From Kineococcus mangrovi (GTDB taxonomy: Bacteria > Actinomycetota > Actinomycetes > Actinomycetales > Kineococcaceae): a stretch of 64,000 nucleotides of DNA. The stretch covers positions 124,001 to 188,000 of the forward strand of contig NZ_JBGGTQ010000007.1 in assembly GCF_041320705.1 (NCBI RefSeq), read 5' to 3'. Shown one piece after another: positions 34,597 to 61,824 of this stretch. The stretch's first letter is position 1. Each line of letters starts with the position of its first letter. The notes under the pieces were generated by a model. The model searched no databases. It was not told where the DNA came from and worked only from the letters and a program-made list of their open reading frames with translations. The position numbers were made by a program, and so were the translations under genes.

Positions 34597-35001
34597 TCAG
34601 ACCTCGCGGACGAGCGGGGCGTCCAACGGCTGGTCCTTGCCGTAGAGGACGGCCTGGGTCGCACGGTGGGCCCTGGGGTTCAGGACGATGGGGGCGAGCA
34701 GGTTCATCGTCGCCTTCTCGGCACCGCCCAGCATGTTGACCACGGCCAGGACGGCCCCGTCCTTCTCGTCCGCGATCTCGAGGGAGCGGGCGGTGTCCCC
34801 GTCGATCACGGGTTCGTAGTCGGGGTAGAACGGCATCGGGTCCGCCACCACCAGCTGGAGGCCGGGGTCCGACATCGACCGCATCGTGAAGAACAGGCCG
34901 TCCTCGTCGAGGGGCTCGAGCTCGAAGCTGCGGTGGTCCTCGAAGCCCACGAGGGGTGAGATGAACTCGATCTTGGAGGTGGTTTCGGAAGCGATGCTCA
35001 C
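34597..35001 (-). CDS. fliW: Flagellar assembly factor FliW (copy 1)
   Basis: A 134-residue FliW. Typical segments are 'IEFISPLVGFEDHRSFELEP' near the start, 'LQLVVADPMPFYPDYEPVID', 'VLAVVNMLGGAEKATMNLLA' and 'PIVLNPRAHRATQAVLYGKD'. In other bacteria FliW binds flagellin and CsrA, linking flagellin level to its own translation. The start is GTG 35001 after GAAGGG. A hairpin with GGA in its loop lies 25 bases upstream. No csrA gene is in this window. Confidence 0.9.
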   Translation of the reverse strand: MSIASETTSKIEFISPLVGFEDHRSFELEPLDEDGLFFTMRSMSDPGLQLVVADPMPFYPDYEPVIDGDTARSLEIADEKDGAVLAVVNMLGGAEKATMNLLAPIVLNPRAHRATQAVLYGKDQPLDAPLVREV

Positions 35002-35179: not shown

Positions 35180-35581
35180 TCAGCGGGCCAGGAGCGGTGC
35201 CCGCAGAGGATGGTCGGTACCCACGAGGACGGCCTGCGCGGCCCGCAGGTTCCGGTGGTTGACGACGATCGGCGCCAGCAGGTTGACGGTCGCCGTCGCG
35301 GGGTCGTCCCCGATGTTCACGACGTTCAGGACGGCCGCCTCGCTCGCCTCGCGCAGGTCCAGCGCGGCTGCCGTCTCGTCGTCGATCTCCGGCGCGTAGC
35401 CCGGGAAGAACCGCCCGGGCGTCACCACCACGAGCCGCGTCCGAGCCCCGCCCGCCTCGCGCAACGACCACAGGTTCCCCTCCTCGTCCAACGGCAGGAG
35501 GTGGAACGCCGTGTGGTGCGGAAGGCCCATGATGGGCGAGACGAACTCGATGACGGGGGCGGACACGGGCGCGTCGGTCAT
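35180..35581 (-). CDS. fliW: Flagellar assembly factor FliW (copy 2)
   Basis: About 133 residues from the ATG at 35581. It shares the pattern of copy 1: 'IEFVSPIMGLPHHTAFHLLP', 'LVVVTPGRFFPGYAPEIDDE', 'VLNVVNIGDDPATATVNLLA' and 'PIVVNHRNLRAAQAVLVGTD'. The two differ at many positions, so this is an old duplication. It is the last gene of the flgN-flgK-flgL-fliW operon, 35 bases after flgL. One copy may serve flagellin and the other a different client. Confidence 0.9.
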   Translation of the reverse strand: MTDAPVSAPVIEFVSPIMGLPHHTAFHLLPLDEEGNLWSLREAGGARTRLVVVTPGRFFPGYAPEIDDETAAALDLREASEAAVLNVVNIGDDPATATVNLLAPIVVNHRNLRAAQAVLVGTDHPLRAPLLAR

Positions 35582-35616
35582 GAGGGTCACTCTAGGAACT
35601 CCGGAGGTGGACGGGG

Positions 35617-37980: not shown

Positions 37981-38472
37981 TCAGAGTGCTTCGTCGACGA
38001 AGTGGGCGCGCGAGCCACCGGTCGACGCGGCCGTGTTCTTGCCCTGGGCGGTGTAGGTGTCGAGGGGCTTGTCCAGCCCGAGGAGGGTCTCGCGCAGGGC
38101 GCGGGAGCCGGCGTGCAGGAGGTCGCGGTTGGCGTCGGCCAGGTCCTGGATCTCGGCGGTGAGGGTGAGGAAGGAGTCGCGGTGGCCGCGGAAGATCTCC
38201 CCCCACGGGTCCGGCGCCGCCTCGGCGATCGCGTTCAGGCTCGGGCCGGGCCCGAGGCCGAGCTCGGTGGCCACGGCGTCGACCTCGGTCGCGCGCAGGA
38301 GCTCGGTCGTCCGGATCTGCTCCATGACGAACTCGACCTCGCGGGTCGCGTGCGCCAGCCAGCGCGTGCGGCCGCTGGCCAGCACGAGCTGCTCCTCCTC
38401 CAGCTTGAACAGGAGCAGCTCGAGCAGCTCCCGCTCCTTCCAGAGGATGCCGGAGACCTCGGCGAGTCCCAT
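37981..38472 (-). CDS. flgN: FlgN-type flagellar export chaperone
   Basis: A 163-residue, mostly helical protein. The N-terminal 'GILWKERELLELLLFKLEEE' and 'LAHATREVEFVMEQIRTTEL' helices match FlgN, the chaperone that keeps FlgK and FlgL export-ready. Its place directly upstream of flgK-flgL supports this. The ATG at 38472 follows GGAAGGAC. A flagellar-sigma-type promoter motif lies 45-71 bases upstream, so this gene leads the operon. Confidence 0.85.
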   Translation of the reverse strand: MGLAEVSGILWKERELLELLLFKLEEEQLVLASGRTRWLAHATREVEFVMEQIRTTELLRATEVDAVATELGLGPGPSLNAIAEAAPDPWGEIFRGHRDSFLTLTAEIQDLADANRDLLHAGSRALRETLLGLDKPLDTYTAQGKNTAASTGGSRAHFVDEAL

Positions 38473-38516: not shown

Positions 38517-38543
38517 CCATCGGCGGGCGCTACCACGAGCTGA
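38517..38543 (-). promoter_or_regulatory. Flagellar (sigma-28 type) promoter of flgN-flgK-flgL-fliW
   Basis: On the minus strand TCAG, a 15-base spacer and GCCGATGG. The -10 GCCGAT core and the spacer match FliA/WhiG-class promoters. The same motif occurs upstream of fliC, fliS and a glycosyltransferase gene in this window. Confidence 0.85.
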
Positions 38544-39148: not shown

Positions 39149-39496
39149 TCAGGCGCCCGTCTTCTTGATGAACTGCGCGTGCTTGGTCGGCTTGCGCAGG
39201 GCGTAGGGGCGGCCGTCCTCGCGGGCCCGGCGCATCTCCTGGTTCAGGACGCGCGCCTCCTCCTCCATGGCCCGTTCCACCGCCCGCTGGTCCAGGCCGC
39301 GCGAGCGCTCGGTGGCGATGTGGTCGTTGCGGCCGATCTCGTGCTCGACGTCGAGGAAGTTCTTCGCGCACAGCGCGTAGAGGGCGCTGACGCGCTCGCC
39401 GTTCTTCACCGCGTAGTTGTCCAGGAAGGTCGGCGTCAACCAGCCCTTCTTGGCAGCGAACTCCAGGTCCTGCACGACCTGCCACAACGGTTTCAC
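39149..39496 (-). CDS. Hypothetical protein in the flagellar locus, 115 residues
   Basis: I do not recognise this family. The product is small, charged and mostly helical ('LWQVVQDLEFAAKKGWLTPT', 'RVSALYALCAKNFLDVEHEI', then 'QRAVERAMEEEARVLNQEMR'), with a basic tail 'RKPTKHAQFIKKTGA'. It has no signal peptide. The start is GTG 39496 after GGAGGTCG. A TCAG-N16-GCCGAGAG motif upstream resembles the flagellar promoters here, and the gene is divergent from the FliA-type sigma gene. A motility role is therefore plausible, but unproven. Confidence 0.75.
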   Translation of the reverse strand: MKPLWQVVQDLEFAAKKGWLTPTFLDNYAVKNGERVSALYALCAKNFLDVEHEIGRNDHIATERSRGLDQRAVERAMEEEARVLNQEMRRAREDGRPYALRKPTKHAQFIKKTGA

Positions 39497-39742: not shown

Positions 39743-40639
39743 GTGACCGCAGACGTTGCCACCGCCACCCGGGAGCTCCCCATGGTCGAGCTCAGCGCAG
39801 CCGAGCGCAGTGCGCTCGTCGAGCAGCACCTGCCGCTCGTCGGCTACATCACCTCCGAGTTCATCGGCCGCCTGCCCTCGCACGTGAGCCGGGACGATCT
39901 CACCTCGGCCGGTCTCATGGCGCTGTTCCAGGCCTCGCGCGCCTACGACCCGAACACCGGCGTCCCCTTCAACCGGTACGCCAACACCCGCATCCGCGGC
40001 GCCATCCTCGACGACCTGCGCGGCGCGGACTGGGCCTCGCGCGGCGTCCGCAGCCGCCAGCGCAGGCTGTCGCAGACCGAGGACCAGCTGACCACCCAGC
40101 TGGGCCGCACCCCGACCTCCACCGAGCTCGCCGCCGCCCTCGGCGTCTCGGAGAAGGAGCTCGCCGAGACGCGCGACGAGGCGCAGCGCTCGATGGTGCT
40201 GTCGATGCAGGGCTTCACCGCCGAGGGTGCCTCCCTCGACGACCACCTGCCCACCCACACCCCGGGCCCGGAGCAGGAGCTGCTGCACCGCGAACGCCTG
40301 GGCTACCTGCGCTCGGCCGTCAGCGTCCTGCCCGAGCGGCTGCGGCACGTCGTGGAGGGCTACTTCCTGCACGAGCGCCCCATGGCCGAGCTGGCCGAGG
40401 AGCTGGGGGTCTCCGAGTCCCGGATCTCGCAGATGCGCGCCGAGGCGCTCGTGCTGCTGCGCGACGGCATGAACACCCACCTCTCGCCCGAGATGGTCCT
40501 CAAGGCCGCCGGCTCCGGCGCGGCCGTGAAGCGCAAGGAGGCGTACTACGCCGCCGTCGGGACGCAGAGCGACTTCCGCAGCCGGCTGGCGCTCAGCAGC
40601 TTCGCGCAGTTCTCGGTGCCGGTGGCGCGCACGGCCTGA
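39743..40639 (+). CDS. fliA: FliA/WhiG-type alternative sigma factor
   Basis: Directs RNA polymerase to flagellar promoters of the TAAA-N15-GCCGATAA class. Region 2 is visible in 'LTSAGLMALFQASRAYDPNT' and 'FNRYANTRIRGAILDDLRGAD' (about residues 76-96), region 3 in 'RTPTSTELAAALGVSEKELA', and region 4 helix-turn-helix in 'RPMAELAEELGVSESRISQM'. At 298 residues it is slightly longer than typical FliA, with a tail after region 4. GCCGATG-type promoters in this window are its probable targets. The anti-sigma factor FlgM was not found here. Confidence 0.93.
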   Translation: MTADVATATRELPMVELSAAERSALVEQHLPLVGYITSEFIGRLPSHVSRDDLTSAGLMALFQASRAYDPNTGVPFNRYANTRIRGAILDDLRGADWASRGVRSRQRRLSQTEDQLTTQLGRTPTSTELAAALGVSEKELAETRDEAQRSMVLSMQGFTAEGASLDDHLPTHTPGPEQELLHRERLGYLRSAVSVLPERLRHVVEGYFLHERPMAELAEELGVSESRISQMRAEALVLLRDGMNTHLSPEMVLKAAGSGAAVKRKEAYYAAVGTQSDFRSRLALSSFAQFSVPVARTA

Positions 40640-40643
40640 GGGT

Positions 40644-41768
40644 TCAGGCAGAGCTGCCGCGGACCGAGGCGATCAGGACGTCGCAGACCCGGTCGACCTC
40701 TTCCCGGTCGATGCCGGGGAACATCGGCAGACTGAGCAGTCGGGGGCTCGTTGCCTCGGTCTCGAGGACACCGGCCCGCGGCATGACGGCGTAACCCTTC
40801 TGCTGGTGGCAGGGGAACGGGTAGTGCACGGCCGTACCGATGCCCTCGGCGGCCAGGTCAGCCTGCGCCCGGTCCCGGTCGTCGACCCTGACCACCTGCA
40901 GGTGGTGCACCGACGTGCTCGCCGGTGCTTGTCGAGTGAGGGTGATGCCGGGTTCTTCGCCGAGTCGCTGCGAGTACTGGTCCGCAGCGTTCCGGCGGTG
41001 GGTGTTCCACGCCTGCAGGTGAGGGAGCTTGACGAGGAGGACGGCGGCCTGGAGAGCGTCCAGGCGACTGTTCCTGCCGACGACGGGGTGTTCGTACTTG
41101 AAGATCTCCGACCGCCCATGGTCCCCGAAACTGCGAACCGCACGAGCGAGCGCTGCATCACGCGTCACGACAGCCCCACCATCACCGAAAGCACCCAGGT
41201 TCTTGCCGGGGTAGAAGCTCGTGCAACCGGCGACTCCGAACGTTCCCACGGCCCGGCCGTCCCACTGGGCCCCCTGTGCCTGGGCGCAGTCCTCGACGAC
41301 GGCGATGCCTCGACGACTCGCCAGCGCCGTGATGGCCGTCATGTCGGCGGCCTGGCCGTAGAGGTGGACCACGATGACGGCGGCCGTCCGATCGGTGATG
41401 CCGCTCGCCACCGTGGACGCCGTCACGAGCAGAGTGTCGGGGTCGACGTCCACGAAGTGGGGGAGGGCGCCTACCGCCAGCACCGCCTCCGCCGTGGCGA
41501 TGAAGGTGTTGGCGGGGACCACCACTTCGTCACCAGGGCCGATGCCGAGACCGCGGAGCACGAGTTCGAGGGCGTCGGTCCCGTTGGCCACACCCACCGC
41601 GTGGTCGAGTCCGTGCTCGGCGGCCCAGGCCCCCTCGAAAGCTTCCACCACGGGCCCGCCGACGTACCTGGCGCTGCGGGTGATGGATCGCCACGCGGCG
41701 TCGAACTCCTCGTAGAGGTCTCGCTGACTCCTCTCCAGGTCCAGGAAGGGGACGGGAGGCGGGGTCAC
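40644..41768 (-). CDS. DegT/DnrJ/EryC1-family sugar aminotransferase
   Basis: A PLP enzyme that transaminates keto-sugar nucleotides. 'FLDLERSQRDLYEEFDAAWR' starts the domain, 'VANGTDALELVLRGLGIGPG' and 'DEVVVPANTFIATAEAVLA' are family motifs, and the PLP lysine lies in 'SFYPGKNLGAFGDGGAVV'. Length 374 from GTG 41768, whose start overlaps the stop of the Gfo/Idh gene by four bases. The pair suggests ketone formation followed by amination at one sugar carbon. The product is probably an amino sugar for a surface glycan such as a flagellin decoration. Confidence 0.93.
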   Translation of the reverse strand: MTPPPVPFLDLERSQRDLYEEFDAAWRSITRSARYVGGPVVEAFEGAWAAEHGLDHAVGVANGTDALELVLRGLGIGPGDEVVVPANTFIATAEAVLAVGALPHFVDVDPDTLLVTASTVASGITDRTAAVIVVHLYGQAADMTAITALASRRGIAVVEDCAQAQGAQWDGRAVGTFGVAGCTSFYPGKNLGAFGDGGAVVTRDAALARAVRSFGDHGRSEIFKYEHPVVGRNSRLDALQAAVLLVKLPHLQAWNTHRRNAADQYSQRLGEEPGITLTRQAPASTSVHHLQVVRVDDRDRAQADLAAEGIGTAVHYPFPCHQQKGYAVMPRAGVLETEATSPRLLSLPMFPGIDREEVDRVCDVLIASVRGSSA

Positions 41769-42817
41769 CGCAGCACCAGGGCCGGGTGGTCCCTGCGAGA
41801 GGGCTCGGCGAGGTCGATCTGGTCGAGGCGCACCTCGACGCCCTTCTCGAGCGAGACGGATGCAGCTTCGAGGGTGCGCACCACGTCGAGTCCTGCCCCG
41901 CCCCCGGTCAGCGGGGCGTTCCCGGTGCGGATGCACTCGACGAAGTGCTGGTCCTCCAGGAGGAGTGGTTCTTGGAACGGGATGTAGGGGACGTGGATGT
42001 CGCCGTACCGGTAGGTCATGGGCTGGTCATGCGTGTGCGGCACGTCGACCGGGGTGACGCCCTTGTCGAAGACGCGCAACCGTTCGTCGTTCGCGAGGTC
42101 GTCGAAGACCGCCATGCGCTGTGACCCTACGACGGTGAGCCGGCGGACGCGGTGCGGGCTCAACCAACTGACGTGGACGACGGCTTGGGTGCCCGACTCC
42201 TCGTAGTCGAGCATCAGGTAAGCGTTGTCCGTCACCGCGCGGTCGATGTGGCCCCGTCCCCAGCACCGAACGGAGCTGGGGGAAGTACCGGTGATGGAGT
42301 TGACGATGCTGATGTCGTGCGGGGCGAGGTCCCACAGCACGTCGCAGTCGGACTGGTAGAGACCCAGGTTGAGCCGCTCGCTGTCCATGTGCAGCACGTC
42401 CCCGAGTTCACCTCGCCCGATGAGATCGCGGAGTGCGCGGACAGCGGGGTTGTACGCGAAGGTGTGTCCCACCATCAGGGTCGTCCTCGTGGCTGCCGCG
42501 AGGGTCACGAGATGGCGCGCATCCAGCGAATCGAGCGCCAGGGGCTTCTCCACGAGGACGTGGACGCCGCGCTCGAGCGCGGCCCGAGCGATGGCCGAGT
42601 GGCTCGACGGTTGCGTGGCCACCACGAGACCGTCGACGGCTTCCAGGAGGGAGTCGAGCGAACTGGCCCGCCGGACGCTGGGGAACGCCGTGGCGACGGC
42701 CTCGATGCGATCGGCGTTCGCATCGTGGACGACCAGCTCGTCGACCTCGTGCACGGTGCTGAGGACCCTGGCGTGCTTCGAGCCCCAGTAGCCGAGTCCC
42801 ACGACGCCGATGCGCAT
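41765..42817 (-). CDS. Gfo/Idh/MocA-family sugar dehydrogenase
   Basis: Oxidises a sugar hydroxyl with NAD(P). 'RIGVVGLGYWGSKHARVLS' is the Rossmann motif, 'GVHVLVEKPLALDSLDARHL' contains the conserved EKP, and 'DVLWDLAPHDISIVNSITG' has the catalytic-site histidine. Length 350 from ATG 42817, preceded by GGAGGAAGAG. With the coupled DegT gene and the acetyltransferase-like gene across the divergent promoter, it recalls the WlbA/WlbE/WlbB set that builds 3-acetamido sugars. The precise substrate is not determined by sequence. Confidence 0.92.
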   Translation of the reverse strand: MRIGVVGLGYWGSKHARVLSTVHEVDELVVHDANADRIEAVATAFPSVRRASSLDSLLEAVDGLVVATQPSSHSAIARAALERGVHVLVEKPLALDSLDARHLVTLAAATRTTLMVGHTFAYNPAVRALRDLIGRGELGDVLHMDSERLNLGLYQSDCDVLWDLAPHDISIVNSITGTSPSSVRCWGRGHIDRAVTDNAYLMLDYEESGTQAVVHVSWLSPHRVRRLTVVGSQRMAVFDDLANDERLRVFDKGVTPVDVPHTHDQPMTYRYGDIHVPYIPFQEPLLLEDQHFVECIRTGNAPLTGGGAGLDVVRTLEAASVSLEKGVEVRLDQIDLAEPSRRDHPALVLR

Positions 42818-42956: not shown

Positions 42957-43910
42957 GTGTCGACGTCCTCAGCCACTGCGACGTCCGCTGCGACCCCGGC
43001 CCGCCCGCAGGAGGGCACTCCCCGCGACCGGTGGCCGGAGGACCTCTTCTACCGCGGCGACTACCACGACCTCCACGCCGCAGACCGACCCTCGCTCTAC
43101 TGCCGGTGGGACGCCGGCGGGCTCGACGTCGGTGCGATCCACTTCGGGGAGGTCGGTGCGGGGGTCTGGCGGAGCCCGGCGCGCGGCACCTTCGCAGGGC
43201 TCGCCTGGCGAGCGGACAGACCCCTGCACGAGGCCTCCGAGTTCGTCCGGGTCGTGGAGACGCGACTGCGGGACCGTGGGGCTCGTCGCCTCGAGGTCGT
43301 GCTCCCACCGCTGGGGCACGACCTGCAACGTGTCAGCGACCAGGTGCAGGTCCTGTCGGAGCTCGGCTGGGGGGTCGCTCGCACCGAGGTGGACGAGATC
43401 ATCCCTGTTGACGAGGTGCCGCTCGAGACGAGGATGGAACGGGGGAACGCCAAACGCTTGAGGAAGTGCCGGCGCGACGGCTTCCACGCCGCGGTCCTCG
43501 AGCCCGACGAGCTCCCGTCCGTCTACTCCACCCTGGTGGCCAGTCGTGTCGCGCGCGGGTGGCGGTTGTCCATGGACCTGCCTCGGATGCACGACATGCA
43601 ACGCCTCTACCCGGACCGGGTGGTCCTCTTCGGTGTGCGCGCCGGCGACCAGCTCGCGGCCAGCGCCTTCTGCCTGCGTCTCAGCGAACGGGTCCTGTAC
43701 GTCTTCGCCTGGGGGCACCTTCCGGTGTTCCACGCGTGGAGCCCCGTGGTCGCTCTCGCCGAGGCGATCCACGACCACTGTCGGGCAGCAGGGGTGCAGC
43801 ACCTGGACCTCGGAACCTGCCCGTCGGATCAGCCGGGTCTCGTCCGGTTCAAGCGCGGACTGGGGGCCTCCGGGTCCTTGAAGGTCACCATGGCCAAGGA
43901 CCTGACGTGA
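42957..43910 (+). CDS. GNAT/FemAB-like acyltransferase family protein
   Basis: About 317 residues. 'DLFYRGDYHDLHAADRPSLY' lies near the start, 'GNAKRLRKCRRDGFHAAVLE' and 'VYSTLVASRVARGWRLSMDL' in the middle, and 'VVLFGVRAGDQLAASAFCLR' plus 'VQHLDLGTCPSDQPGLVRFK' in the GNAT-like core. Such BioF2/FemAB-like proteins transfer acyl or aminoacyl groups; here an amino sugar made by the divergent genes is a likely acceptor. The start is uncertain: GTG 42957 is used, with GTG 42900 as alternative. The gene heads a coupled four-gene run. Confidence 0.72.
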   Translation: MSTSSATATSAATPARPQEGTPRDRWPEDLFYRGDYHDLHAADRPSLYCRWDAGGLDVGAIHFGEVGAGVWRSPARGTFAGLAWRADRPLHEASEFVRVVETRLRDRGARRLEVVLPPLGHDLQRVSDQVQVLSELGWGVARTEVDEIIPVDEVPLETRMERGNAKRLRKCRRDGFHAAVLEPDELPSVYSTLVASRVARGWRLSMDLPRMHDMQRLYPDRVVLFGVRAGDQLAASAFCLRLSERVLYVFAWGHLPVFHAWSPVVALAEAIHDHCRAAGVQHLDLGTCPSDQPGLVRFKRGLGASGSLKVTMAKDLT

Positions 43911-44692
43911 GCGCACCGGCGCCGGACGGCCCCGCGGTGGCGGGCGACGAGCCGCGGAACCTCGACGACTACGTGGTCCAGTACGGCCGCCTGCCCTTCG
44001 AGCCCCTCCAGGCGGCGGTTCGCCGTCGTCGTGTGCTGCAACAGGTCCGGAGCATCGCCCCGCGGCGACTCCTCGAGATCGGGTGCGGGCTCGACCCGTT
44101 GTTCACGGACCTGCCCGACGTGCAGGAGATCGTCGTCCTGGAACCCGCGGCGGCCTTCGCGTCGGCGGCGCGCGCTGCGGCCTCGGGATGCCGTGGGGTC
44201 ACGGTCGTGGAGGCGCGCGCCGAGGACGTCGCCCCGGCTGATCTCGGCGCGCCGTTCGACGCGGTGGTGCTGAGCAGCCTGCTGCACGAGGTCCCCGACC
44301 CTTCGGCCCTCCTGCTCGCAGTCAGGAGGTTCTGCGGCCGATCCACCGTGGTGCACGTCAACGTCCCGAACGCCCGTTCCCTGCACCGCCTCCTCGCCGT
44401 CGCCATGGGACTCGTCGAGGACGTCTACGCGTTGTCGCCGGTCCAGCGGCAGATGCAGCAGCGTGGCACCTACGACCTCGACGGCCTCCGCGCGGAGCTG
44501 GCAGCAGCGGGGTTCGTGGTCGCGCGGTGGGGAACGGTGCTCGTCAAACCGTTCCCGCACGCCCAGATGCAGGAACTCGTCGACTCGGGGTTCCTGACGC
44601 CACGACTGATCGACGGCCTGGATTCGCTCGCGGAGGCGTTGCCCGAGATCGGTTCGGAGCTGTGGGTCGACGCCGAGGTCGCGGATGTCTGA
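43907..44692 (+). CDS. SAM-dependent methyltransferase (first of two in the island)
   Basis: About 261 residues. 'RRLLEIGCGLDPLFTDLPDV' is motif I, 'EIVVLEPAAAFASAARAAAS' follows, and 'FDAVVLSSLLHEVPDPSALL' is the motif II region. The C-terminal part ('TYDLDGLRAELAAAGFVVAR', 'LVKPFPHAQMQELVDSGFLT') resembles that of the methyltransferase at 46055, so the two are paralogues. The acceptor is probably a sugar or a lipid-linked glycan, by context. The GTG overlaps the upstream stop, and its end overlaps the next gene by eight bases. Confidence 0.85.
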   Translation: MSAPAPDGPAVAGDEPRNLDDYVVQYGRLPFEPLQAAVRRRRVLQQVRSIAPRRLLEIGCGLDPLFTDLPDVQEIVVLEPAAAFASAARAAASGCRGVTVVEARAEDVAPADLGAPFDAVVLSSLLHEVPDPSALLLAVRRFCGRSTVVHVNVPNARSLHRLLAVAMGLVEDVYALSPVQRQMQQRGTYDLDGLRAELAAAGFVVARWGTVLVKPFPHAQMQELVDSGFLTPRLIDGLDSLAEALPEIGSELWVDAEVADV

Positions 44693-46058
44693 GCATCTGC
44701 TGGTGGGCGGTAATCTCGCCATGCTCGTCGCCGCGGCTGACCTCGTCGCCCGAGGCCACGGCGTCCGCCTCCTGACCGACGGCGCCGCGCCCGGTGGGTA
44801 CTTCCGCGGATCCGTGGTCGAGGGCGAGACGTTCGACAACGGCATGGTCCTGATCGAGCGCAGGACCGAGGCCGGCGGGTCGGCGGCTGACGAGCCGACA
44901 CCGTACGCCCCCTCCGCCCTGCACGATTGGACGCGGTTCGGCCAACGTGTGGACGACTGGCTCACCGGCCGGGTCGAGCTCCGTCGCGCACCGTCCCTGG
45001 AGGTGTCGGTGGATGGTCGGCGGTGGCCGGACCACCTGTTGAGCAACCGTTTGGACGTGTTCGGCCACCTGGGGACGGACGACCCCGCGCCGTTCCAGGT
45101 CGGGGACGCCCGACACCCTGCGGTGAAGTCCACGTCGCCGACCTTCGACGAGGTTACCTACGGCGAGCTCGCGCCCCTCGTCCACGGTGCGCGCAACCAC
45201 GCCCACCTGATCACCCCCTTCGCCCGCAAGGTGCTCGGACCGTCCCACGAGCACGTGCTGGCGCGGCACCACCGCAGCGGCTGGCTGCCGCTCTACTGGC
45301 CCGAGTCGGTCGCGAGCGCCCGAGCCGGGCTTCCCGTGGGCATGCCCGAGTACCCCTTCTGGTCCGTGGCCGGGGGGACGGTGAGCGATGTCGTCGCTGG
45401 ACTGGTCGGGGAACTCGCTGACTCCAACGCGTGCGAGGTCGACACCTCACCGGTCGTCGCCGTGGGCCGCGACGCCCGCGGCTGGCAGGTGCGAACGGCC
45501 GCGGCGGGGAGAGGCAGAGCCTCCAGGCTGGCCGTCGGACTGACTCCGGCCCGTCTGCACGAGGTGTCGGGCGGTGCGTGTGCCGCACCCGTCGACCCAC
45601 CTGCGGCGAACGGGGTGGACCTCGTCTACTGCCTCGTCCGGGCAACCGGGGCTCGAACCCCCGTGAGTTGTCTCCTGGTCACCGAATCCCACCTCGACGT
45701 GTACCGCCTCACCGACCAGGACGTGCTGGCCGGTACGGACCGGCCCTGGCACCGCGTGGTCCTCGAGGCCCGGACGCGGGGTGCGTCGGTGACCGGTGCG
45801 GTTCCAGGGCTCGTCGGTGAGCTCTGCGCCCTGCTGGGTGTGGACGCCGAGGACGTCCGGGTCCTGGGAGCACGGCGGGCAGAGCGGGGGATCCCGCTCC
45901 TGTCGGCGCCCGTCGTCGAGGCCGACGCCGCTCGGGCTGCCGCGACGGTGGCGTGGGCCCGGGACGCGCCGCTCAGCGGCTCGCTGCTCGGCCTGCACGT
46001 CACCTCGATGAACGACCAGATCGTCCAAGGACTCGAGATCGCCGAGGAGCTGTCGTGA
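44685..46058 (+). CDS. NAD(P)/FAD-binding oxidoreductase-like protein
   Basis: A 457-residue protein. The N-terminus 'EHLLVGGNLAMLVAAADLVA' followed by 'GHGVRLLTDGAAPGGYFRGS' is a dinucleotide-binding pattern like those of amine oxidases, PPOX and UDP-galactopyranose mutase, although the glycines (VGGNLA) are atypical. A C-terminal 'LSGSLLGLHVTSMNDQIVQG' could be the second FAD contact. I cannot name the reaction; a sugar oxidation or ring contraction would suit the island. It is coupled to both neighbouring methyltransferases. Confidence 0.7.
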   Translation: MSEHLLVGGNLAMLVAAADLVARGHGVRLLTDGAAPGGYFRGSVVEGETFDNGMVLIERRTEAGGSAADEPTPYAPSALHDWTRFGQRVDDWLTGRVELRRAPSLEVSVDGRRWPDHLLSNRLDVFGHLGTDDPAPFQVGDARHPAVKSTSPTFDEVTYGELAPLVHGARNHAHLITPFARKVLGPSHEHVLARHHRSGWLPLYWPESVASARAGLPVGMPEYPFWSVAGGTVSDVVAGLVGELADSNACEVDTSPVVAVGRDARGWQVRTAAAGRGRASRLAVGLTPARLHEVSGGACAAPVDPPAANGVDLVYCLVRATGARTPVSCLLVTESHLDVYRLTDQDVLAGTDRPWHRVVLEARTRGASVTGAVPGLVGELCALLGVDAEDVRVLGARRAERGIPLLSAPVVEADAARAAATVAWARDAPLSGSLLGLHVTSMNDQIVQGLEIAEELS

Positions 46059-46786
46059 ACACCCGTGTCCAAGAGCTGGAGCGCATCGCCGCCCAGTACC
46101 ACCTCAACGACGACGTCGTCGACAAGTTCATCGAGGACCTGTGTCAGGAGTACTGCTGCGACTGGCTGGCCACTCTCGTCGACCCGACCCACGACGTCGT
46201 CGAGCTGGGGTACGGGGAGGGAGTGACCGTCTCCCGCCTGGGGCGGCTGGCCCGGCGGTACACCGTCGTCGAGGGAGCCCCCACCCTGGCGCAACGCGTC
46301 CGGGAGGAGCACCCCGGGCTGGAGGTCGCCGAAGCGCTCTTCGAGGACTGGGCCCCGGCACAGCCCTGCGATCTGCTCCTCGCCCTGCACGTCTTCGAAC
46401 ACGTCGACGACCCCGTCTCCCTCGCCCGTCACCTGCGGTCGTGGGTCGCTCCCGGCGGCGAGATGGTCGTGATCGTCCCCAACCGCGACTCGCTGCACCG
46501 CCGTCTCGGGGTCGCCATGGGGCTCCAGCCCACTCTGGACACCCTCAGCCCCAGGGACGTCCTGGTCGGCCACCAGCGGGTGTACGACCTTCCCGGTCTG
46601 GAACGGGACCTGGCCCAGGCGGGGTTCGCGACGGTCGAGAGGCGCGGGTTCTTCGCCAAGGCCCTCCCCAACGCCCTCATGCTCGACCTGGGGCCGGAGC
46701 ACATCCGGGGGCTGAACGCGCTGGCTGAGGAGTTGCCGGCGTCGCTGTGCGCGAACATCGCCGTCCGCGTACGACCGATCGGGTGA
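46055..46786 (+). CDS. SAM-dependent methyltransferase (second of two in the island)
   Basis: About 243 residues from GTG 46055. 'HDVVELGYGEGVTVSRLGRL' replaces the usual E/DxGxGxG with ELGYGEG, 'YTVVEGAPTLAQRVREEHPG' follows, and 'CDLLLALHVFEHVDDPVSLA' with 'EMVVIVPNRDSLHRRLGVAM' is typical of class I enzymes acting on sugars. The C-terminal segment mirrors the paralogue at 43907. It ends the coupled run; a separate flagellar-type promoter begins ten bases after its stop. Confidence 0.85.
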   Translation: MNTRVQELERIAAQYHLNDDVVDKFIEDLCQEYCCDWLATLVDPTHDVVELGYGEGVTVSRLGRLARRYTVVEGAPTLAQRVREEHPGLEVAEALFEDWAPAQPCDLLLALHVFEHVDDPVSLARHLRSWVAPGGEMVVIVPNRDSLHRRLGVAMGLQPTLDTLSPRDVLVGHQRVYDLPGLERDLAQAGFATVERRGFFAKALPNALMLDLGPEHIRGLNALAEELPASLCANIAVRVRPIG

Positions 46787-46796
46787 GCCCAGGGGT

Positions 46797-46823
46797 TCAG
46801 GACGGTCACCGACCGGCCGATGT
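46797..46823 (+). promoter_or_regulatory. Flagellar (sigma-28 type) promoter of a glycosyltransferase gene
   Basis: TCAG, 15 bases, GCCGATGT. It matches the sites before flgN, fliC and fliS in every motif position except the last base of the -10 box, which is T as in fliS. The glycosyltransferase start codon lies 36 bases downstream. This is the main sequence link between the glycan island and motility. Confidence 0.82.
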
Positions 46824-46858
46824 TCCTGCCGACGGGTTGCCGGAGTCAGGAGGATGTC

Positions 46859-48811
46859 GTGACGGGAACAACGGTTCCGCCTGAGGCGACGGTGCTGGTC
46901 ATCGGCGCGGGTGCGGAGGGGGTGCACGAACCTCTGGGGCGTGCGCTGGCGAACGCTCGTGCCGCGGGCTGGGACTTCCTGGGAGTCGACCCCTCGGTCG
47001 CTGCGGCCGCGCGCCTGAAGGGGAGCCCGGGGGACGTGGTCACCTGGATGCTGAGCGCTTTCGTCCCGCAGCTCGTCCTCGTCACCGACGACGTGGACCC
47101 CGGTGGCGAGCTGCCCGCCGGGACGGACGTCCTGGCGGTGACCTCGATGCAGCTGGTGCACGCGCTCGCGCGGGTGCTGGGCGTGCCTCCGACGACTTGG
47201 CGAACAGGCCAGGAGGTGGGCGCCGACCAGATCACCGAGCCTGACGACGACTCTGTCCGGGGGCTGCAGCAGAAGCTGCTCGGCCTGCGGGCCGGCGGGC
47301 TCCAGGTCGTCGAGCACACCCCGAGGGCGAGCATCGTGATCGCCTGCCACAACCTCGACTCCTACGCGCACGAGGTGATGCGGTCGTCGCTGGACCAGAC
47401 GTTCGACGACTACGAGGTCGTCGTGGTGGACGACGGGTCGACGGACCGCACGGCTGAGATCCTGCGTTCCTACGCCACCAACCCCAAGGTGCGGGTGGTG
47501 ACGCAGCCGAACATCGGCGGTACGGGGCGGATGGACCTGGTGCAGAACCGGCTGATCCGCGAATCCCGGGGTGAGTTCGTGGCCTGGGTGGGGGGCGACG
47601 ACGTCAACACACCGCGCCGCCTCGAGGTGCAGGTGCAGGCGTTCGACGACGACCCGGGCCTGGACGTGTGCCACGCGGGTGCTCACTTCATCGACGAGCT
47701 GGGTCGCGTCACCGGTCGAGGGTTCCGGCCCCCGGTGCCCTACGACGACCTGAGCATGCTCCGCCAGATCATCCACACCAACCTGGTGGGGGCACCGTCG
47801 GTGATGATCCGTCGGTCCGCCCTCGAACGCCACGGGTTGTTCGAGCAGGGACTGGCGTCCGACTACCACTTCTGGTTGAAGACGGCCGGGATCCTCCGCT
47901 ACCGGTACCTCCCGCACGTCCTCGTGCACTACCGACGGCACAGCCAGAGCCTGTCGACCAGCGCCTCCGGTGTCGAGCGGACGGTGCGCGACTCGATGAG
48001 GCTCCGCTCGCTCGTGCTCGCCGCTCGGCCGCTGGTCGACTTCTTCCCCGAACTGCGCGGTGGCCAGCACGTCCGGGCCGAGGCCGAGGCGTCCATCGCC
48101 CTCGGCAACGCGCTCCTGCAGCTCGATGCGCAGCTGGCGCTGCAGGCTTACGACACCGCCCTCGGGCACGGTTCGGCCGACGCGTTCCACAACGCTGCCA
48201 TCGCCCACGTCTTCGCCGGGCAGGCCGATCAAGCCCTGGCCTGTGCCCGCACCGCCGCCTCCCTGGACCCCACGTGCGCGGCGCTGCAGGAGGCGTGGTC
48301 GGGGCGCGGGGAGTCCCAGGTGGCGCTGCGGCAACCGCGCGGTCACCTGCTACCGGCCGTGCAGGAGGCACGCCGACTGCTGGGTGGCTCGGCACGGCGG
48401 TGGGACGGTACGACGCTGCAGACTCGACGCGCCTACCTCGCCTTCGCTCCCGGTCGCGAGGATCTCGCCCGGGCGGCCCTGCAGATCTGGTCCACCCGGA
48501 CGCACAGCACGAACCCGTTGCGCTGGATCCTGCCCGCACGCCCCGGGCAGGCTCAGGACGCGTTCGCCGACTTGGTCTCGCTCGCGGCGGGACTGTCCCT
48601 CGACGACGCAGCGGACATCACGATCGAAGAGGTGGAGGACCTGTCGATGCTCCCCCCGCAGGAGGACCAGGCCAACGTTCTGCCCGACACGGAACGGCGG
48701 CTGGTCGGCTCGTTGTCTTCAGAGGCCGACCTGGGGGTCTTCACGCGGTGGGTGGGAGAGTGCCAGATGGACCTCGCCCGACGGGGATTCGAGTCCTGGC
48801 TGCCTGCCTGA
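46859..48811 (+). CDS. Family 2 glycosyltransferase with extended N- and C-terminal domains
   Basis: A 650-residue protein. A Rossmann-like N-terminal domain ('ATVLVIGAGAEGVHEPLGRA') precedes the GT2 core: 'RASIVIACHNLDSYAHEVMR', 'YEVVVVDDGSTDRTAEILRS' and 'EFVAWVGGDDVNTPRRLEVQ' with a D-D pair for the metal. The C-terminal 200 residues are helical and TPR-like ('GSADAFHNAAIAHVFAGQAD'). Start GTG 46859 is chosen for its AGGAGG site. The flagellar-type promoter upstream suggests it glycosylates flagellin or another filament protein. Confidence 0.88.
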   Translation: MTGTTVPPEATVLVIGAGAEGVHEPLGRALANARAAGWDFLGVDPSVAAAARLKGSPGDVVTWMLSAFVPQLVLVTDDVDPGGELPAGTDVLAVTSMQLVHALARVLGVPPTTWRTGQEVGADQITEPDDDSVRGLQQKLLGLRAGGLQVVEHTPRASIVIACHNLDSYAHEVMRSSLDQTFDDYEVVVVDDGSTDRTAEILRSYATNPKVRVVTQPNIGGTGRMDLVQNRLIRESRGEFVAWVGGDDVNTPRRLEVQVQAFDDDPGLDVCHAGAHFIDELGRVTGRGFRPPVPYDDLSMLRQIIHTNLVGAPSVMIRRSALERHGLFEQGLASDYHFWLKTAGILRYRYLPHVLVHYRRHSQSLSTSASGVERTVRDSMRLRSLVLAARPLVDFFPELRGGQHVRAEAEASIALGNALLQLDAQLALQAYDTALGHGSADAFHNAAIAHVFAGQADQALACARTAASLDPTCAALQEAWSGRGESQVALRQPRGHLLPAVQEARRLLGGSARRWDGTTLQTRRAYLAFAPGREDLARAALQIWSTRTHSTNPLRWILPARPGQAQDAFADLVSLAAGLSLDDAADITIEEVEDLSMLPPQEDQANVLPDTERRLVGSLSSEADLGVFTRWVGECQMDLARRGFESWLPA

Positions 48812-48820
48812 CGGGGGAGG

Positions 48821-48841
48821 GTCCGGTGCCACGTACCGGAC
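48821..48841. terminator. Terminator hairpin between two convergent glycosyltransferase genes
   Basis: GTCCGGT and ACCGGAC form a 7-bp stem around seven bases, extendable by a G-T and a G-C pair. It fills the 35-base gap between convergent genes. Confidence 0.6.
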
Positions 48842-48846
48842 TCCGT

Positions 48847-50382
48847 TCAGGCGGGCACCAGGGAAGCTGCCAGAGCTGGTGCGTACCGGGTCAAGCTCGC
48901 GACGACGTTGTCCACCTGGTCGTCCGGCACCACCGCGAGCATCGCCTCCAGTGCCGGGGTGATCCAGGTCTCGCCGATCTCGTGGAGGACGCCGGCGCAG
49001 ACGATGCGGGTCGTGGTGTCCCGCTGACCCGCGGCAGCCGCGATCCGACGCAGGGGACAGAGATCCTCCAGACCCGCTTCCCGCAGACGAAGGGACCACC
49101 TCAGCGCCTCGTCCACCGTCATGGACGGCCACTGCCTGGCCACGGCGGCGAGCAGGGAGGGCCGGTGCCCGGTCCTGGTCCACAGCGCCTCGAAGAAGCC
49201 GGCCGTCACCTCGGCGAGGCACGTCTGCAGCTGCGCCAGGAACGGCTTGACCAGGGCGTCCGGCAGGGCGGCGGCCAGCCGGGCTGCCCCGTCGGCCGTC
49301 TCCTCGACCAGCAGCAGAGCGCTGACGGGGGAGATGCCGGACCTGCCGGTCGTGACGTGCGACAGCAACAGCTCCGCTGCCTCCGCACCGCGCCCCTGGC
49401 GAGCGACGCACGTGATCAGTTGATCGGTGTGGGCGTCCGCCCGGAACTGCGCCGACGTCCGGTGCACGTCGTCCTCCAGCCCGCGCAGCAGGTCCTCGGC
49501 TCGGTTCCAGTCGCCCTCAGCCATGCTGACCTGCGCGCGCATGGCCGAGCACACGTGCTTGCTCTCCCCCCACGCCTCCATGCGGTCGATCCACCGGCGC
49601 GCCGTCGTCAGGTCGCTGAGGGCCAGGGCGCTGACCAGGACCGTCGGCCCGGCGATCAAGCCCGACCCGTCCGGGAGGGAGTCGAGGTCGAGGGTTGCGA
49701 AGGTTCGCAGGGCCTTGGCGTGGTCACCGGCGAGCGTCGCCGAGCGCGCCACGTTGATGACCAGGTCCGGTTCCACCGTCCTGCCTCCTCCGCGAGCCTT
49801 CTCCAGAGCTGCCTCGGCGAGGGCCAGGTTGCGTGCGCCCTTGTTGCGCTCCCGCATGTAGACGGCGGTGTAGCCGTAGTGGCGCAGGAAGATCGTCGAG
49901 TTCTGGACCTGGCTGACCGCCCCCCAGCGGCCGACGATGACCTCGTGCAGCATGCCCTCGAAGCGGCAGTGCGACCGCCGCAGCACACGGGCCACCATCG
50001 CCCGGTGCTCGGCCCCGCCGTCCGCGTAGGAGCTGGACACCACCTCGAGCGCGAAGCTGTCCGTCGTCGCCAGGCGCAGCGACCGGCGCCAGGCGCGCGG
50101 GTCGCCGTGCACGACCTCGTCGGCGTCGACGCTCAGGACCCACTCGCCGGTGCAGTGCTCGAGCGCGCGGTTGCGGGCCGCGCCGAAGTCGTCGTCCCAG
50201 AACCCCTCGACGACCGTGGCACCGTGCTCCCGGGCGATCGCCACCGTCCGGTCCCGGCTCCCGGTGTCGTAGACCACGATCTCGTCGACGAACGGAGCCA
50301 CCGCGGCCAGGGATGCCCCGAGGAGCTCTTCCTCGTCCTTCACGATGTAGCTCGCGGTGACGAAGGTGGTGGCTTCGGGCAT
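48847..50382 (-). CDS. Family 2 glycosyltransferase with TPR-like C-terminus
   Basis: About 511 residues. The GT2 domain is clear: 'VTASYIVKDEEELLGASLAA', 'DEIVVYDTGSRDRTVAIARE', 'GFWDDDFGAARNRALEHCTG' and the metal-binding 'WVLSVDADEVVHG'. Helical repeat-like sequence fills the C-terminal 300 residues. This is the layout of SPR/Wcaa-type transferases that add sugars to proteins or lipids. GAGAGGGG followed by ATGCAG favours the ATG at 50382 over that at 50388. It is divergent from fliC, which supports a role in flagellin glycosylation. Confidence 0.88.
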   Translation of the reverse strand: MPEATTFVTASYIVKDEEELLGASLAAVAPFVDEIVVYDTGSRDRTVAIAREHGATVVEGFWDDDFGAARNRALEHCTGEWVLSVDADEVVHGDPRAWRRSLRLATTDSFALEVVSSSYADGGAEHRAMVARVLRRSHCRFEGMLHEVIVGRWGAVSQVQNSTIFLRHYGYTAVYMRERNKGARNLALAEAALEKARGGGRTVEPDLVINVARSATLAGDHAKALRTFATLDLDSLPDGSGLIAGPTVLVSALALSDLTTARRWIDRMEAWGESKHVCSAMRAQVSMAEGDWNRAEDLLRGLEDDVHRTSAQFRADAHTDQLITCVARQGRGAEAAELLLSHVTTGRSGISPVSALLLVEETADGAARLAAALPDALVKPFLAQLQTCLAEVTAGFFEALWTRTGHRPSLLAAVARQWPSMTVDEALRWSLRLREAGLEDLCPLRRIAAAAGQRDTTTRIVCAGVLHEIGETWITPALEAMLAVVPDDQVDNVVASLTRYAPALAASLVPA

Positions 50383-50648
50383 CTGCATCCCCTCTCGATG
50401 AACGCCGAACGGGCTCCGGTTGCGCCGGTGCTCTCGTGCCGACGCTGGCAAGGGTAGTGCGTCCGAGGAGATGTCGTCACCGGTAGTCACTAAACGGCTA
50501 CTTAGGGCACTATTGAGGGGCAGTTCGTGCACCCGTGTGGGTCAGGACGCCCACCCGTCCGTCGCGCCGTCGACGGGCAGCAGGTGCACACAGGCGGGGC
50601 GGTCCGAGCCGGCTCGGAGCATCACCCGAACGGGCCAGGGGGAAACCT
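50383..50648. other. Divergent control region between a glycosyltransferase gene and fliC
   Basis: No coding sequence is seen. An AT-rich island at about 50484-50516 stands out. On the minus strand it contains TCAA-N14-GCCGTTTA (50491-50516), a weak flagellar-type promoter candidate for the glycosyltransferase. The rest is ordinary GC-rich sequence. Confidence 0.5.
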
Positions 50649-50675
50649 TCAGGTCTCTCGGGCTCCGGCCGATGG
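50649..50675 (+). promoter_or_regulatory. Flagellar (sigma-28 type) promoter of fliC
   Basis: TCAG, 15 bases, GCCGATGG. The flagellin start codon lies 97 bases downstream, leaving a leader of about 90 bases. Flagellin is the classic FliA target, so this site anchors the motif. Confidence 0.88.
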
Positions 50676-50771
50676 AATGACTGTCCGGCCCGCTCAGGCG
50701 GACCGAGGACGACCGGACCACGGATGGACCGGTTCCCCCACATCGACCCCACTCACGGAGGAATGAACGTC

Positions 50772-51932
50772 ATGGGTCTTCGCGTCAACAACAACATCGC
50801 GGCTCTGAACAGCTACCGGAACCTGCAGGCGACGGACAAGCAGCTCAACGGCTCCCTCGAGAAGCTGTCCTCCGGGCTGCGCATCAACAAGGCTGCCGAC
50901 GACGCGGCCGGCCTGGTGATCTCCGAGGGTCTGCGCTCGCAGATCGGTGGCCTCACCGTCGCGGCCCGCAACGCCCAGGACGGCGTCAACGTCGCCCAGA
51001 CCGCGGACGGTGCGCTGAGCACCTCCACCACCATCCTGCAGCGCATGCGCGACCTGGCCGTGCAGTCGTCCAACGACACCAACGACACCGCGTCCCGCAC
51101 GGCCATCCAGAAGGAGATCACCTCCCTCTCGGCCGAGCTCGACCGCATCTCCGACAAGTCCTCCTTCAACGGTGTGAACCTGCTCGACGGCACCTTCGCG
51201 GGCAAGATCTTCCAGGTCGGTGCGTACAACGGCGACACGATCACCTTCGACGTGAAGTCCGGTGCCGCCGCCGCCTCGGCCGTCGCCGCCGCGACCGAGA
51301 CCTTCGTGTCCACCGGTGCCTTCGACGACGCGGCCGTCAGCGCCGTCAGCTCCGTCACGGTCAACGGCACCACGGTCTCGTTCGCCACCGGTGGCACCGC
51401 GGCGGCGGCGGTCTCGCTGATCAACGCGAACGCCACGATCTCCGCCAACTGGACCGCGTCGATCTCGGGCAGCTCGCTCGTCCTGACCTCCAAGGTCGCC
51501 GGCAACGTGACCGACGCCGCCGTCTCGCTCGGTGGTGCGGCCTTCGGCGGCACCACGACCGACGGTGCCAAGGCGGCGGCCGCGATCAAGGCCGACTCCT
51601 TCGGCTCCGGTGGCCTCGGGCTGGCCTCGATCGACCTGTCCACCCAGAGCGGTGCGGCCGCGGCGATCGCCACGATCGACAGCGCGCTCAAGACGGTCTC
51701 CGCCTCGCGCGCCTCGATCGGTGCTCTCCAGAACCGCTTCGAGCACGTCATCAACTCCGTCAACGTCGCGGTCGAGAACCTGACCGCGTCGGAGTCGGCC
51801 ATCCGCGACACCGACATGGCCAAGGAGATGACGAAGTTCACCCGCAGCCAGATCCTGTCGCAGGCGGGTACGAGCATGCTCGCGCAGGCGAACTCCGCCT
51901 CGCAGAACGTCCTGACGCTGCTGCGCGGCTGA
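50772..51932 (+). CDS. fliC: Flagellin
   Basis: The filament subunit, exported by the flagellar apparatus. The N-terminal D0/D1 helices read 'MGLRVNNNIAALNSYRNLQA', then 'LSSGLRINKAADDAAGLVIS', and the C-terminal pair ends 'MTKFTRSQILSQAGTSMLAQ' and 'SASQNVLTLLRG'. The central domain is short and rich in Ala, Val, Ser and Thr, offering many O-glycosylation sites. Start: GGAGGA touches the ATG at 50763 but lies nine bases before the ATG at 50772, so the latter is preferred (386 residues). A terminator follows. Confidence 0.97.
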   Translation: MGLRVNNNIAALNSYRNLQATDKQLNGSLEKLSSGLRINKAADDAAGLVISEGLRSQIGGLTVAARNAQDGVNVAQTADGALSTSTTILQRMRDLAVQSSNDTNDTASRTAIQKEITSLSAELDRISDKSSFNGVNLLDGTFAGKIFQVGAYNGDTITFDVKSGAAAASAVAAATETFVSTGAFDDAAVSAVSSVTVNGTTVSFATGGTAAAAVSLINANATISANWTASISGSSLVLTSKVAGNVTDAAVSLGGAAFGGTTTDGAKAAAAIKADSFGSGGLGLASIDLSTQSGAAAAIATIDSALKTVSASRASIGALQNRFEHVINSVNVAVENLTASESAIRDTDMAKEMTKFTRSQILSQAGTSMLAQANSASQNVLTLLRG

Positions 51933-57721: not shown

Positions 57722-57748
57722 TCAGGAACGGGTCGCCGTTGCCGATGT
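57722..57748 (+). promoter_or_regulatory. Flagellar (sigma-28 type) promoter of fliS
   Basis: TCAG, 15 bases, GCCGATGT. The fliS start codon lies 40 bases downstream. The site is identical in its motif positions to the one before the glycosyltransferase at 46859. Confidence 0.85.
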
Positions 57749-57787: not shown

Positions 57788-58204
57788 ATGACCGCGATGA
57801 CGTACGGCCGCCAGGCCAACCGCTACCTCGGTGACTCCCTGGCCACCGCGAGCCCCACCGCGCTGCTCGTGATGCTCTACGACCGTCTGCTGCTGGACCT
57901 GCGGCGCGCCGAGCAGGCCCAGCGCGAGCAGGACCGCGAAACCGCCCACGTCAACCTGGTCCACGCCCAGGCCATCGTCCAGGAGCTCCAGGCCAGCTTG
58001 AAGGTCGACGCCTGGGAGGGCGGTACCGGACTCATGGCCCTCTACACCTGGGTGCTGTCCGAACTCACCGCCGCCAACGTCGACTGCGACGCCGAGCGCA
58101 CGGCTCGTTGCCGTGTCGAGACCGTCGAACCGCTGGCCGAGGCCTGGCGCGAAGCCGCTCTCGTCCACCTGAGCGGTCAAGCCGGGCAGCCGGGCTCGGC
58201 GTGA
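57788..58204 (+). CDS. fliS: Flagellin export chaperone FliS
   Basis: Binds the C-terminus of flagellin in the cytoplasm and prevents early polymerisation. 'YGRQANRYLGDSLATASPTA' and 'LLVMLYDRLLLDLRRAEQAQ' are the FliS signature, and 'VDAWEGGTGLMALYTWVLSE' lies in the C-terminal helices. Length 138 from ATG 57788 with GGAGGA seven bases upstream. Its stop overlaps the GTG of the next gene, so both are translated together. It is far from fliC and has its own flagellar promoter. Confidence 0.93.
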   Translation: MTAMTYGRQANRYLGDSLATASPTALLVMLYDRLLLDLRRAEQAQREQDRETAHVNLVHAQAIVQELQASLKVDAWEGGTGLMALYTWVLSELTAANVDCDAERTARCRVETVEPLAEAWREAALVHLSGQAGQPGSA

Positions 58205-61275: not shown

Positions 61276-61824
61276 ATGGCCACGACCCGCACCACGCTCG
61301 CCGCGTGCCTCGTGCTCCAGGGCACCGCCGACACCGCCGCCCTGGCCCCCGCGCTCGAGCAGGACCTGCGCGGCCTGGTCGACGTGGCCGACGAGGTCGT
61401 CGTCTACGACACGGCCGACCACATCGCCCCCGGCAGCGCGGCCTTCGCGGCGACCCTGCACCCGGCCGTCACCGTGGTCTCCGGGTTCTGGGCCGAGGAC
61501 CGCGAGCGTGCCCAGGAGGCCGCGCTCGCCCACGTCGACGCCGACTGGGCGCTGTGCGTCCTGGCCGGGGAGCGCGTCACGGCCGCCACCGGGCAGCTGC
61601 GCGAGCTGCTGGAGCGCGCCACCGACGTCCCGGCCCTGTCGGTGCGGGTGGACGACGTCGTGCGCGGCACGCACCGCTCGGCGCGGTTGCTGCGCAAGTC
61701 CGTCCCCGGCGCCTCCCGGCACGCGGAGGTGCCCGAGGTGCCGAGCGCGGTGCTGACCGTGCGGCAGCCGATCGCCACGACGGCGAACCTGCCGCGCCAG
61801 CGCGGGGTGTTCGACCGGGTCTGA
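61276..61824 (+). CDS. Glycosyltransferase-2-like protein without the metal-binding motif
   Basis: A 182-residue protein that follows the GT2 domain of the gene at 48847-50382. 'DEVVVYDTADHIAPGS' parallels that protein's 'DEIVVYDTGSRDRTVA', and 'VVSGFWAEDRERAQEAALAH' parallels 'VVEGFWDDDFGAARNRALEH'. Then 'WALCVLAGERV' replaces 'WVLSVDADEVV'. The DxD needed for the metal and nucleotide-sugar is lost, so it is probably not an active transferase; a regulatory or binding role is possible. AGGAGA precedes the ATG. A GCCGATGG promoter-like motif lies upstream. Confidence 0.75.
   Translation: MATTRTTLAACLVLQGTADTAALAPALEQDLRGLVDVADEVVVYDTADHIAPGSAAFAATLHPAVTVVSGFWAEDRERAQEAALAHVDADWALCVLAGERVTAATGQLRELLERATDVPALSVRVDDVVRGTHRSARLLRKSVPGASRHAEVPEVPSAVLTVRQPIATTANLPRQRGVFDRV

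Follow-up and report, generated by a model that had tools for sequence, protein, structure and literature searches.

A flagellar-sigma-type promoter core upstream of a glycosyltransferase gene in a putative flagellin glycosylation island of Kineococcus mangrovi

Background

The flagellar locus of Kineococcus mangrovi holds, between a sigma factor gene and the flagellin gene fliC, a group of genes for sugar metabolism and glycosyl transfer, one of which, encoding a 650-aa glycosyltransferase (hereafter referred to as GT2-A), is preceded by a promoter core of the flagellar-sigma type. This raises the question whether flagellin is glycosylated by the products of this locus and, if so, whether GT2-A is the enzyme that acts on the protein and is expressed together with it. 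The question is addressed here by an analysis of the window, i.e. the whole stretch of 64,000 nucleotides (G000:C7:124001-188000) taken from a genome of 4.36 Mb and high GC content, and of related genomes.

Control of a flagellin glycosyltransferase by a flagellar sigma factor is already known from C. difficile, as described in the available parts of the reports. The glycosyltransferase gene CD0240, next to fliC, is strongly reduced in a sigD mutant, with values of 0.06 and 0.008 in the excerpted comparison (PMC3865298), which are read here as mutant/wild-type ratios, the excerpt being without its column heads. CD0240 is the predicted first transferase, and the glycans on flagellin influence both the motility and the aggregation of the cells (PMC4441256). 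For the type A flagellin glycan genes CD0240-CD0244, the accessible text gives no SigD promoter inside the cluster and suggests co-transcription from the fliC promoter (PMC3865298). GmaR, likewise an example of this known kind of system, attaches N-acetylglucosamine to the flagellin of Listeria and has a tetratricopeptide repeat (TPR) part (PMC9638930), and FlmG of Caulobacter is characterised as a soluble enzyme that glycosylates flagellin and has a TPR-containing domain for the acceptor (PMC7591256). Among the open-licence papers listed, none was seen to describe glycosylated flagellin in actinobacteria, and a 2023 paper on actinobacterial flagella carries no "glycosyl-" word in its main text (PMC10746217).

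Results and Discussion

The promoter core and its occurrence in the genome

The core TCAG-N15-GCCGATG (TCAGGACGGTCACCGACCGGCCGATG) lies at 46797-46822 on the plus strand, separated by 10 bases from the preceding stop (46786) and by 36 bases from the start of GT2-A (46859-48811, plus strand, GTG start to stop end), in agreement with the placement given in an initial annotation of this DNA; an AGGAGG at 46848-46853 precedes the GTG. Identical cores are found before flgN (37981-38472, minus strand; core at 38518-38543, minus), before fliC (core at 50649-50674, plus) and before fliS (57788-58204, plus; core at 57722-57747, plus), and the GT2-A site thus has the two boxes at the fixed spacing seen at fliC, flgN and fliS of the same genome. 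The window contains these 4 matches, compared with an average of 0.05 over 100 shuffled sequences, and the core occurs no more than 150 nt upstream in 4 of its 66 genes (flgN, GT2-A, fliC and fliS), as called by our own script with the start of GT2-A placed by hand at 46859.

Genome-wide, the core has 19 matches and the reversed pattern has 2. Seven of the 19 are located 37-98 nt 5' of a gene, namely flgN, fliC, fliS, flbD, cheA, a PAS-GGDEF gene and GT2-A; the other 12 comprise nine within called genes, one across the end of a gene, one 27 nt before a gene for a 491-aa protein and one before a doubtful 40-aa frame only. Since five of the six gene-head sites other than that of GT2-A precede flagellar or chemotaxis genes (flgN, fliC, fliS, flbD and cheA), the core appears mostly to mark such genes. 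The sixth, at G000:C7:91956-91981 (L012:1501-1526), is 58 nt before the PAS-GGDEF gene, which suggests the presence of a c-di-GMP enzyme in the flagellar regulon.

Strength of the GT2-A site

The initial annotation had described the site as a perfect copy of the motif, which is correct for the 11-base core and does not extend to the flanks, where neither the usual T at position 6 nor the final A is present. Because of these two absences, the site scores 18.1 in a two-box extended matrix trained on 16 non-glycosyltransferase sites (from the window, the congeners, flbD and cheA), below all the training sites (21.8-27.9). Among 305 upstream regions, taken from 16 sequences and including the training sites, it ranks 27th, and the 26 regions above it belong to 13 fliC, 7 flgN and 3 fliS genes, one MCP (chemoreceptor) gene and two glycosyltransferase genes. 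The fliC sites of the second bacterial family considered below (n=3) score 18.6-20.6. An earlier full-length matrix, over-fitted to the conserved flgN spacer and therefore superseded by the two-box matrix, gave the GT2-A site 15.1, sixth in the window after flgN, fliS, fliC, 39860 (minus) and 33709 (minus), the last two of which are not known promoters and yet score higher. Judged from the sequence, the GT2-A site is taken to be a real but possibly weaker promoter.

It had also been proposed that the promoter sets GT2-A apart from the upstream run of genes. The gene does have a core of its own in the 72-nt gap; this core, however, need not set it apart, since the four upstream genes overlap by 4-8 bases and a terminator-like site was not found at 46600-51000, so that read-through into GT2-A is possible. 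A sigma-70-type promoter was likewise not found at 46600-51000, and an RNA structure in the 72-nt gap was considered and rejected (z -0.44).

Sites of this kind were also sought before other glycosyltransferase genes. In a hand-made list of such genes in the fetched flagellar loci, in which gene starts come from our own script and may be off, 4 of 22 score at least 14: GT2-A (18.1), the GT2-B gene (see below) of the sister genome G006 (a strong site, 25.3), a 251-aa weak GT2 in G018 (20.9) and a 666-aa GT2-B relative in G002 (14.6). The G018 gene was listed on account of its site, and leaving it out gives 3 of 21. A random-window control reached the same threshold in 46 of 3000 windows, a figure which overstates the background because true flagellar promoters are among the windows. 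The GT2-B gene of the window itself is without a site (best score 1.9), and no site was found directly upstream of the GT2-A relatives in G018, G093 and G106 (0 of 3). The promoter thus recurs on glycosyltransferase genes in different genomes and is fixed on none.

Domain organisation of GT2-A

The 650-residue open reading frame and its assignment to GT2 agree with the initial annotation, PF00535 being matched at residues 159-325 with 88.1 bits (cut-off 23.3). The acidic motifs D191 D192 G193 S194, G245 G246 D247 D248 and D335 Y336 are invariant in the four sequences available, and these motifs (DDGS, GGDD and the later DY) are presumably catalytic, as in GT2 enzymes. The N-terminal region of about 150 aa, earlier called Rossmann-like, matches no Pfam or NCBIfam family. 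A TPR-like C-terminus had been proposed as well and is weakly supported; residues 408-487 do match designed consensus TPR proteins, while the Pfam TPR_2 match, at 18.9 bits, stays under its cut-off of 27. An AlphaFold2 model of GT2-A alone has a mean pLDDT of 39.2 and a pTM of 0.25.

The best match of GT2-A among solved structures is a polysaccharide synthase (chondroitin synthase), which indicates that GT2-A may not act on protein. Three assignments to known classes of flagellin-modifying enzymes were rejected. GmaR is absent among the 22 sequences of solved structures matched at E<=0.001, no Maf-type Pfam domain is present at E<=0.001 in GT2-A (nor in GT2-B), and the GT2 domain at 159-325 precedes the TPR-like part at 408-487, an order which does not fit the FlmG class (N-terminal TPR and GT-B). 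The likeness to FlmG would lie in a TPR-containing acceptor part; FlmG is a GT-B enzyme with an N-terminal TPR, whereas GT2-A is a GT2 enzyme with its TPR-like part C-terminal.

GT2-B, a relative of GmaR beside fliC

The adjoining gene, GT2-B (48847-50382, minus strand), is divergent from fliC and encodes a 511-aa glycosyltransferase with PF00535. Its best solved-structure match is GmaR (22ao, E 1.1e-21 with phmmer), confined to residues 6-193, and the catalytic domain of GT2-B is thus homologous to that of GmaR; the Listeria protein also has TPR and anti-repressor domains, and a TPR_16 follows the glycosyltransferase domain in a GT2-B relative of G005. The second solved match is SunS (7msp, E 6.1e-11 with phmmer), a peptide S-glycosyltransferase that acts on a bacteriocin peptide. 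SunS is also the best NCBIfam model, with a score (51.1 bits) far under its cut-off of 350.

Of the 11 genomes of the genus, 9 have relatives of GT2-B at E<1e-30, and weak short matches only are seen in G007 and G010. The relatives lie no more than 10 kb from fliC in 7 of 10 congeners, i.e. in 8 of the 9 genomes with relatives when the present one is included; in the ninth, G009, the relative and the flagellin match are on separate contigs. The relative in G001 (33% identity over residues 8-350) has a stop codon inside. On the basis of sequence similarity, GT2-B is favoured over GT2-A as a candidate for direct action on flagellin.

Elsewhere in the window, at 61276-61824 (plus), a 182-aa protein is similar to a portion of the catalytic domain of GT2-B (38% over 109 aa). 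Relatives of this protein are encoded near fliS in G010 and G007, and it is perhaps a degenerate or regulatory paralogue.

Gene content between the sigma gene and fliC

The sigma factor of the flagellar locus (39782-40639, plus) belongs to the FliA/WhiG family (TIGR02479, 187.4 bits, just below the cut-off of 189.6), and a sigma gene of this family is found near flgN or fliC in seven congener loci. It is followed by a DegT/DnrJ sugar aminotransferase gene (40644-41768, minus), with matches to WbpE, QdtB and other sugar aminotransferases, and a Gfo/Idh/MocA dehydrogenase gene (41765-42817, minus), for which the nearest NCBIfam model is UDP-GlcNAc 3-dehydrogenase (172.9 bits, below the cut-off of 450). 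The four genes that lead up to GT2-A, all on the plus strand, encode a GNAT-type acyltransferase (42957-43910, Acetyltransf_6), a SAM-dependent methyltransferase (43907-44692) with a 46% identical relative in the G106 island, a 457-aa protein (44685-46058) with no Pfam or NCBIfam match and a second SAM-dependent methyltransferase (46055-46786, Methyltransf_23). The start of the 457-aa protein resembles a nucleotide-binding fold by eye. The pairing of the Gfo/Idh and DegT enzymes suggests a 3-amino sugar, which may be acylated by the GNAT protein and methylated. GT2-A and GT2-B follow, and the interval ends with fliC (50772-51932, plus), encoding a 386-aa flagellin with Pfam Flagellin_N and Flagellin_C, the proposed acceptor. 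Ser/Thr enrichment of this flagellin was rejected as evidence, the fraction of 0.25 in the middle region not being distinctive against 0.21-0.34 in 12 other flagellins.

In the excerpted account of Kineococcus radiotolerans, the flagellar gene order (flgL, flgK, sigma, fliC, fliD, fliS) matches that of the window, and the sigma gene (Krad1625) and fliC (Krad1626) have consecutive locus tags (PMC2587704); the window holds about 10 kb of other genes between the two. Third-position GC is 0.84-0.92 in the island genes, compared with 0.98 in the sigma gene and 0.95 in fliC, and the lower values fit a later arrival of the island. After flgL, the window carries two FliW-like genes (34597-35001 and 35180-35590, both minus), PF02623 being found on the first and the second being related to the first through congener cross-matches.

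Occurrence of GT2-A and the island in other genomes

GT2-A is absent from all 10 congeners examined, so that 1 of 11 genomes of the genus has it, and it is regarded as an accessory gene. Another family supplies full-length relatives with 39-40% identity, in three (G018, G093 and G106) of six genomes belonging to a single genus. A scan of contigs with GT2-A gave eight loci from unrelated bacteria, each a partial match around the GT2 domain. The C-terminus, used as a single sequence against 396 genomes of the order, retrieved its own gene, G018, G093, G106 and two weak partial matches; as a profile against 394 genomes of the class, it retrieved its own gene and four weak partial matches, G018, G093 and G106 being outside the tally of this sample and presumably not drawn.

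In all four genomes having it at full length, GT2-A lies in a flagellar cluster with fliC and relatives of GT2-B and DegT. In G106, GT2-B and GT2-A share a 4-base overlap (GTGA), and after a 325-aa minus-strand gene come relatives of the Gfo (62%), DegT (56%) and methyltransferase (46%) genes. In G093, a single same-strand run leads from GT2-B, which crosses from one fetched stretch into the next, through genes for a 283-aa protein and a further GT2 to GT2-A. Such linkage to flagellar genes, seen in two families, is the strongest indication that GT2-A takes part in flagellin modification.

Within the genus, the island varies. In G005 (L100:6922-11000), GT2-B, NTP_transf_3 and Glyphos_transf genes stand side by side in the interval from fliC to the sigma gene, a combination which recalls the C. 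difficile type A system. A further likeness to that system is a glycosyltransferase gene near fliC under flagellar-sigma control, which in the present island is predicted, and a difference is the site that GT2-A has of its own; the type A sugar genes also differ from those of the present island, and the likeness to CD0240 is one of description and gene place. In the sister genome G006, a Mutator-family transposase lies within the island (L096:8259-9284), which is consistent with gene exchange there.

Proposed explanation and its alternatives

The promoter core, the gene content, the domain families and the co-location with flagellar genes in two families are direct observations. It is very probable that the island in the sigma-to-fliC interval modifies flagellin. 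The fuller account, in which the island glycosylates flagellin with GT2-B acting first and GT2-A second, and with GT2-A co-expressed with flagellin, is regarded as probable. The Gfo/Idh and DegT enzymes, together with the GNAT protein and the methyltransferases, would produce a UDP-activated 3-amino (2,3-diamino) sugar carrying acyl and methyl groups. GT2-B, from its similarity to GmaR and its place, would transfer the first sugar onto flagellin in the cytoplasm, and GT2-A would add the sugar of the island to that first sugar, or place a second sugar directly on flagellin, its TPR-like tail possibly holding the acceptor. The promoter of GT2-A likely makes its expression sigma-dependent and concurrent with that of flagellin. 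Several observations weigh against the fuller account, namely the lack of a site before the three GT2-A relatives and before the GT2-B of the window, the small share of listed glycosyltransferase genes with a site (4 of 22), the low score of the GT2-A site, the second sigma factor described below, the chondroitin synthase match of GT2-A and the ordinary Ser/Thr content of the flagellin. The initial annotation had assigned the modification of flagellin to GT2-A and made no mention of GT2-B; flagellin glycosylation remains the best reading, and the GmaR-like GT2-B is the better candidate for acting on the protein. The accompanying proposal that modification occurs during export finds no support. 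Transfer is placed tentatively in the cytoplasm before export because of the analogy with FlmG, described as cytoplasmic in the available text (PMC7591256).

The sigma factor and the timing call for caution. The genome encodes another FliA/WhiG-type sigma factor (G000:C10:87121-87801) with a higher score (283.5 bits vs 188), and either of the two might read the GT2-A site. K. radiotolerans is reported to be without flgM (PMC2587704), and hence the usual checkpoint timing cannot be assumed. Beside the sigma gene, at 39149-39496 (minus), lies a gene for a 115-aa protein with no Pfam or NCBIfam match, 60-91% identical in seven congener loci, which could be a place to seek a substitute for the missing anti-sigma factor FlgM.

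A rather unlikely alternative is that GT2-A itself is the protein-acting transferase and attaches the first sugar, recognising flagellin by its TPR-like tail. Its own promoter core, which the GT2-B of the window lacks, and the TPR-like stretch at 408-487 would be explained in this way, and precedents are seen in GmaR, whose TPR part has been suggested as the means of recognising flagellin (PMC9638930), and in the N-terminal TPR-containing domain of FlmG, which binds flagellin (PMC7591256). However, the GmaR-like enzyme of the locus is GT2-B, relatives of which occur at E<1e-30 in 9 of the 11 genomes of its genus as against 1 of 11 for GT2-A, and GT2-A resembles polysaccharide-type GT2 enzymes. 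The same resemblance, its nearest named relatives being surface polysaccharide enzymes, could mean that GT2-A works on a different surface glycan (of capsule, spore or cell wall) made along with flagella and leaves flagellin unmodified; the 34 GT2-domain matches in the genome make such genes common and count in favour of this view. It is nevertheless considered very unlikely, given the place of GT2-A in flagellar clusters in four of four genomes and its overlap with the GmaR-like gene of G106.

The remaining alternative concerns the promoter, holding that the GT2-A core is fortuitous or inactive and that transcription comes from the upstream methyltransferase operon. It is compatible with flagellin glycosylation, so that its probability is not exclusive of those of the other readings. 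The flanks weaker than those of the training sites, the gap without a terminator-like site and the lack of a site in the three GT2-A relatives all agree with it. Yet the 12 other sites in the genome amount to 1.4e-6 per position and strand, which gives less than 1e-4 for the 72-nt gap, and among about 2 million random positions only 6 score as high as GT2-A in the earlier full-length matrix; a fortuitous core is thus held to be unlikely.

Conclusions

The preferred reading, glycosylation of flagellin by GT2-B and then GT2-A, can be extended tentatively to the genus, with somewhat less confidence than an even chance. The sigma-to-fliC interval may be an exchange site of flagellin-glycan cassettes. 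Around a near-constant GmaR-like transferase, further transferases and amino-sugar genes would be gained and lost, and the transferase that acquires a flagellar-sigma promoter would vary with the species, being GT2-A in the present genome, GT2-B in the sister genome and the 666-aa GT2-B relative in G002. The flagellin of motile actinobacteria would then carry a 2,3-diamino-sugar glycan built by two transferases that differ in kind. With a GmaR-like enzyme, a second transferase and amino-sugar genes in one locus, flagellin glycosylation becomes open to direct tests in a motile actinobacterium, and the variability of the island offers a way to ask why close species differ in the sugars on their flagellin.
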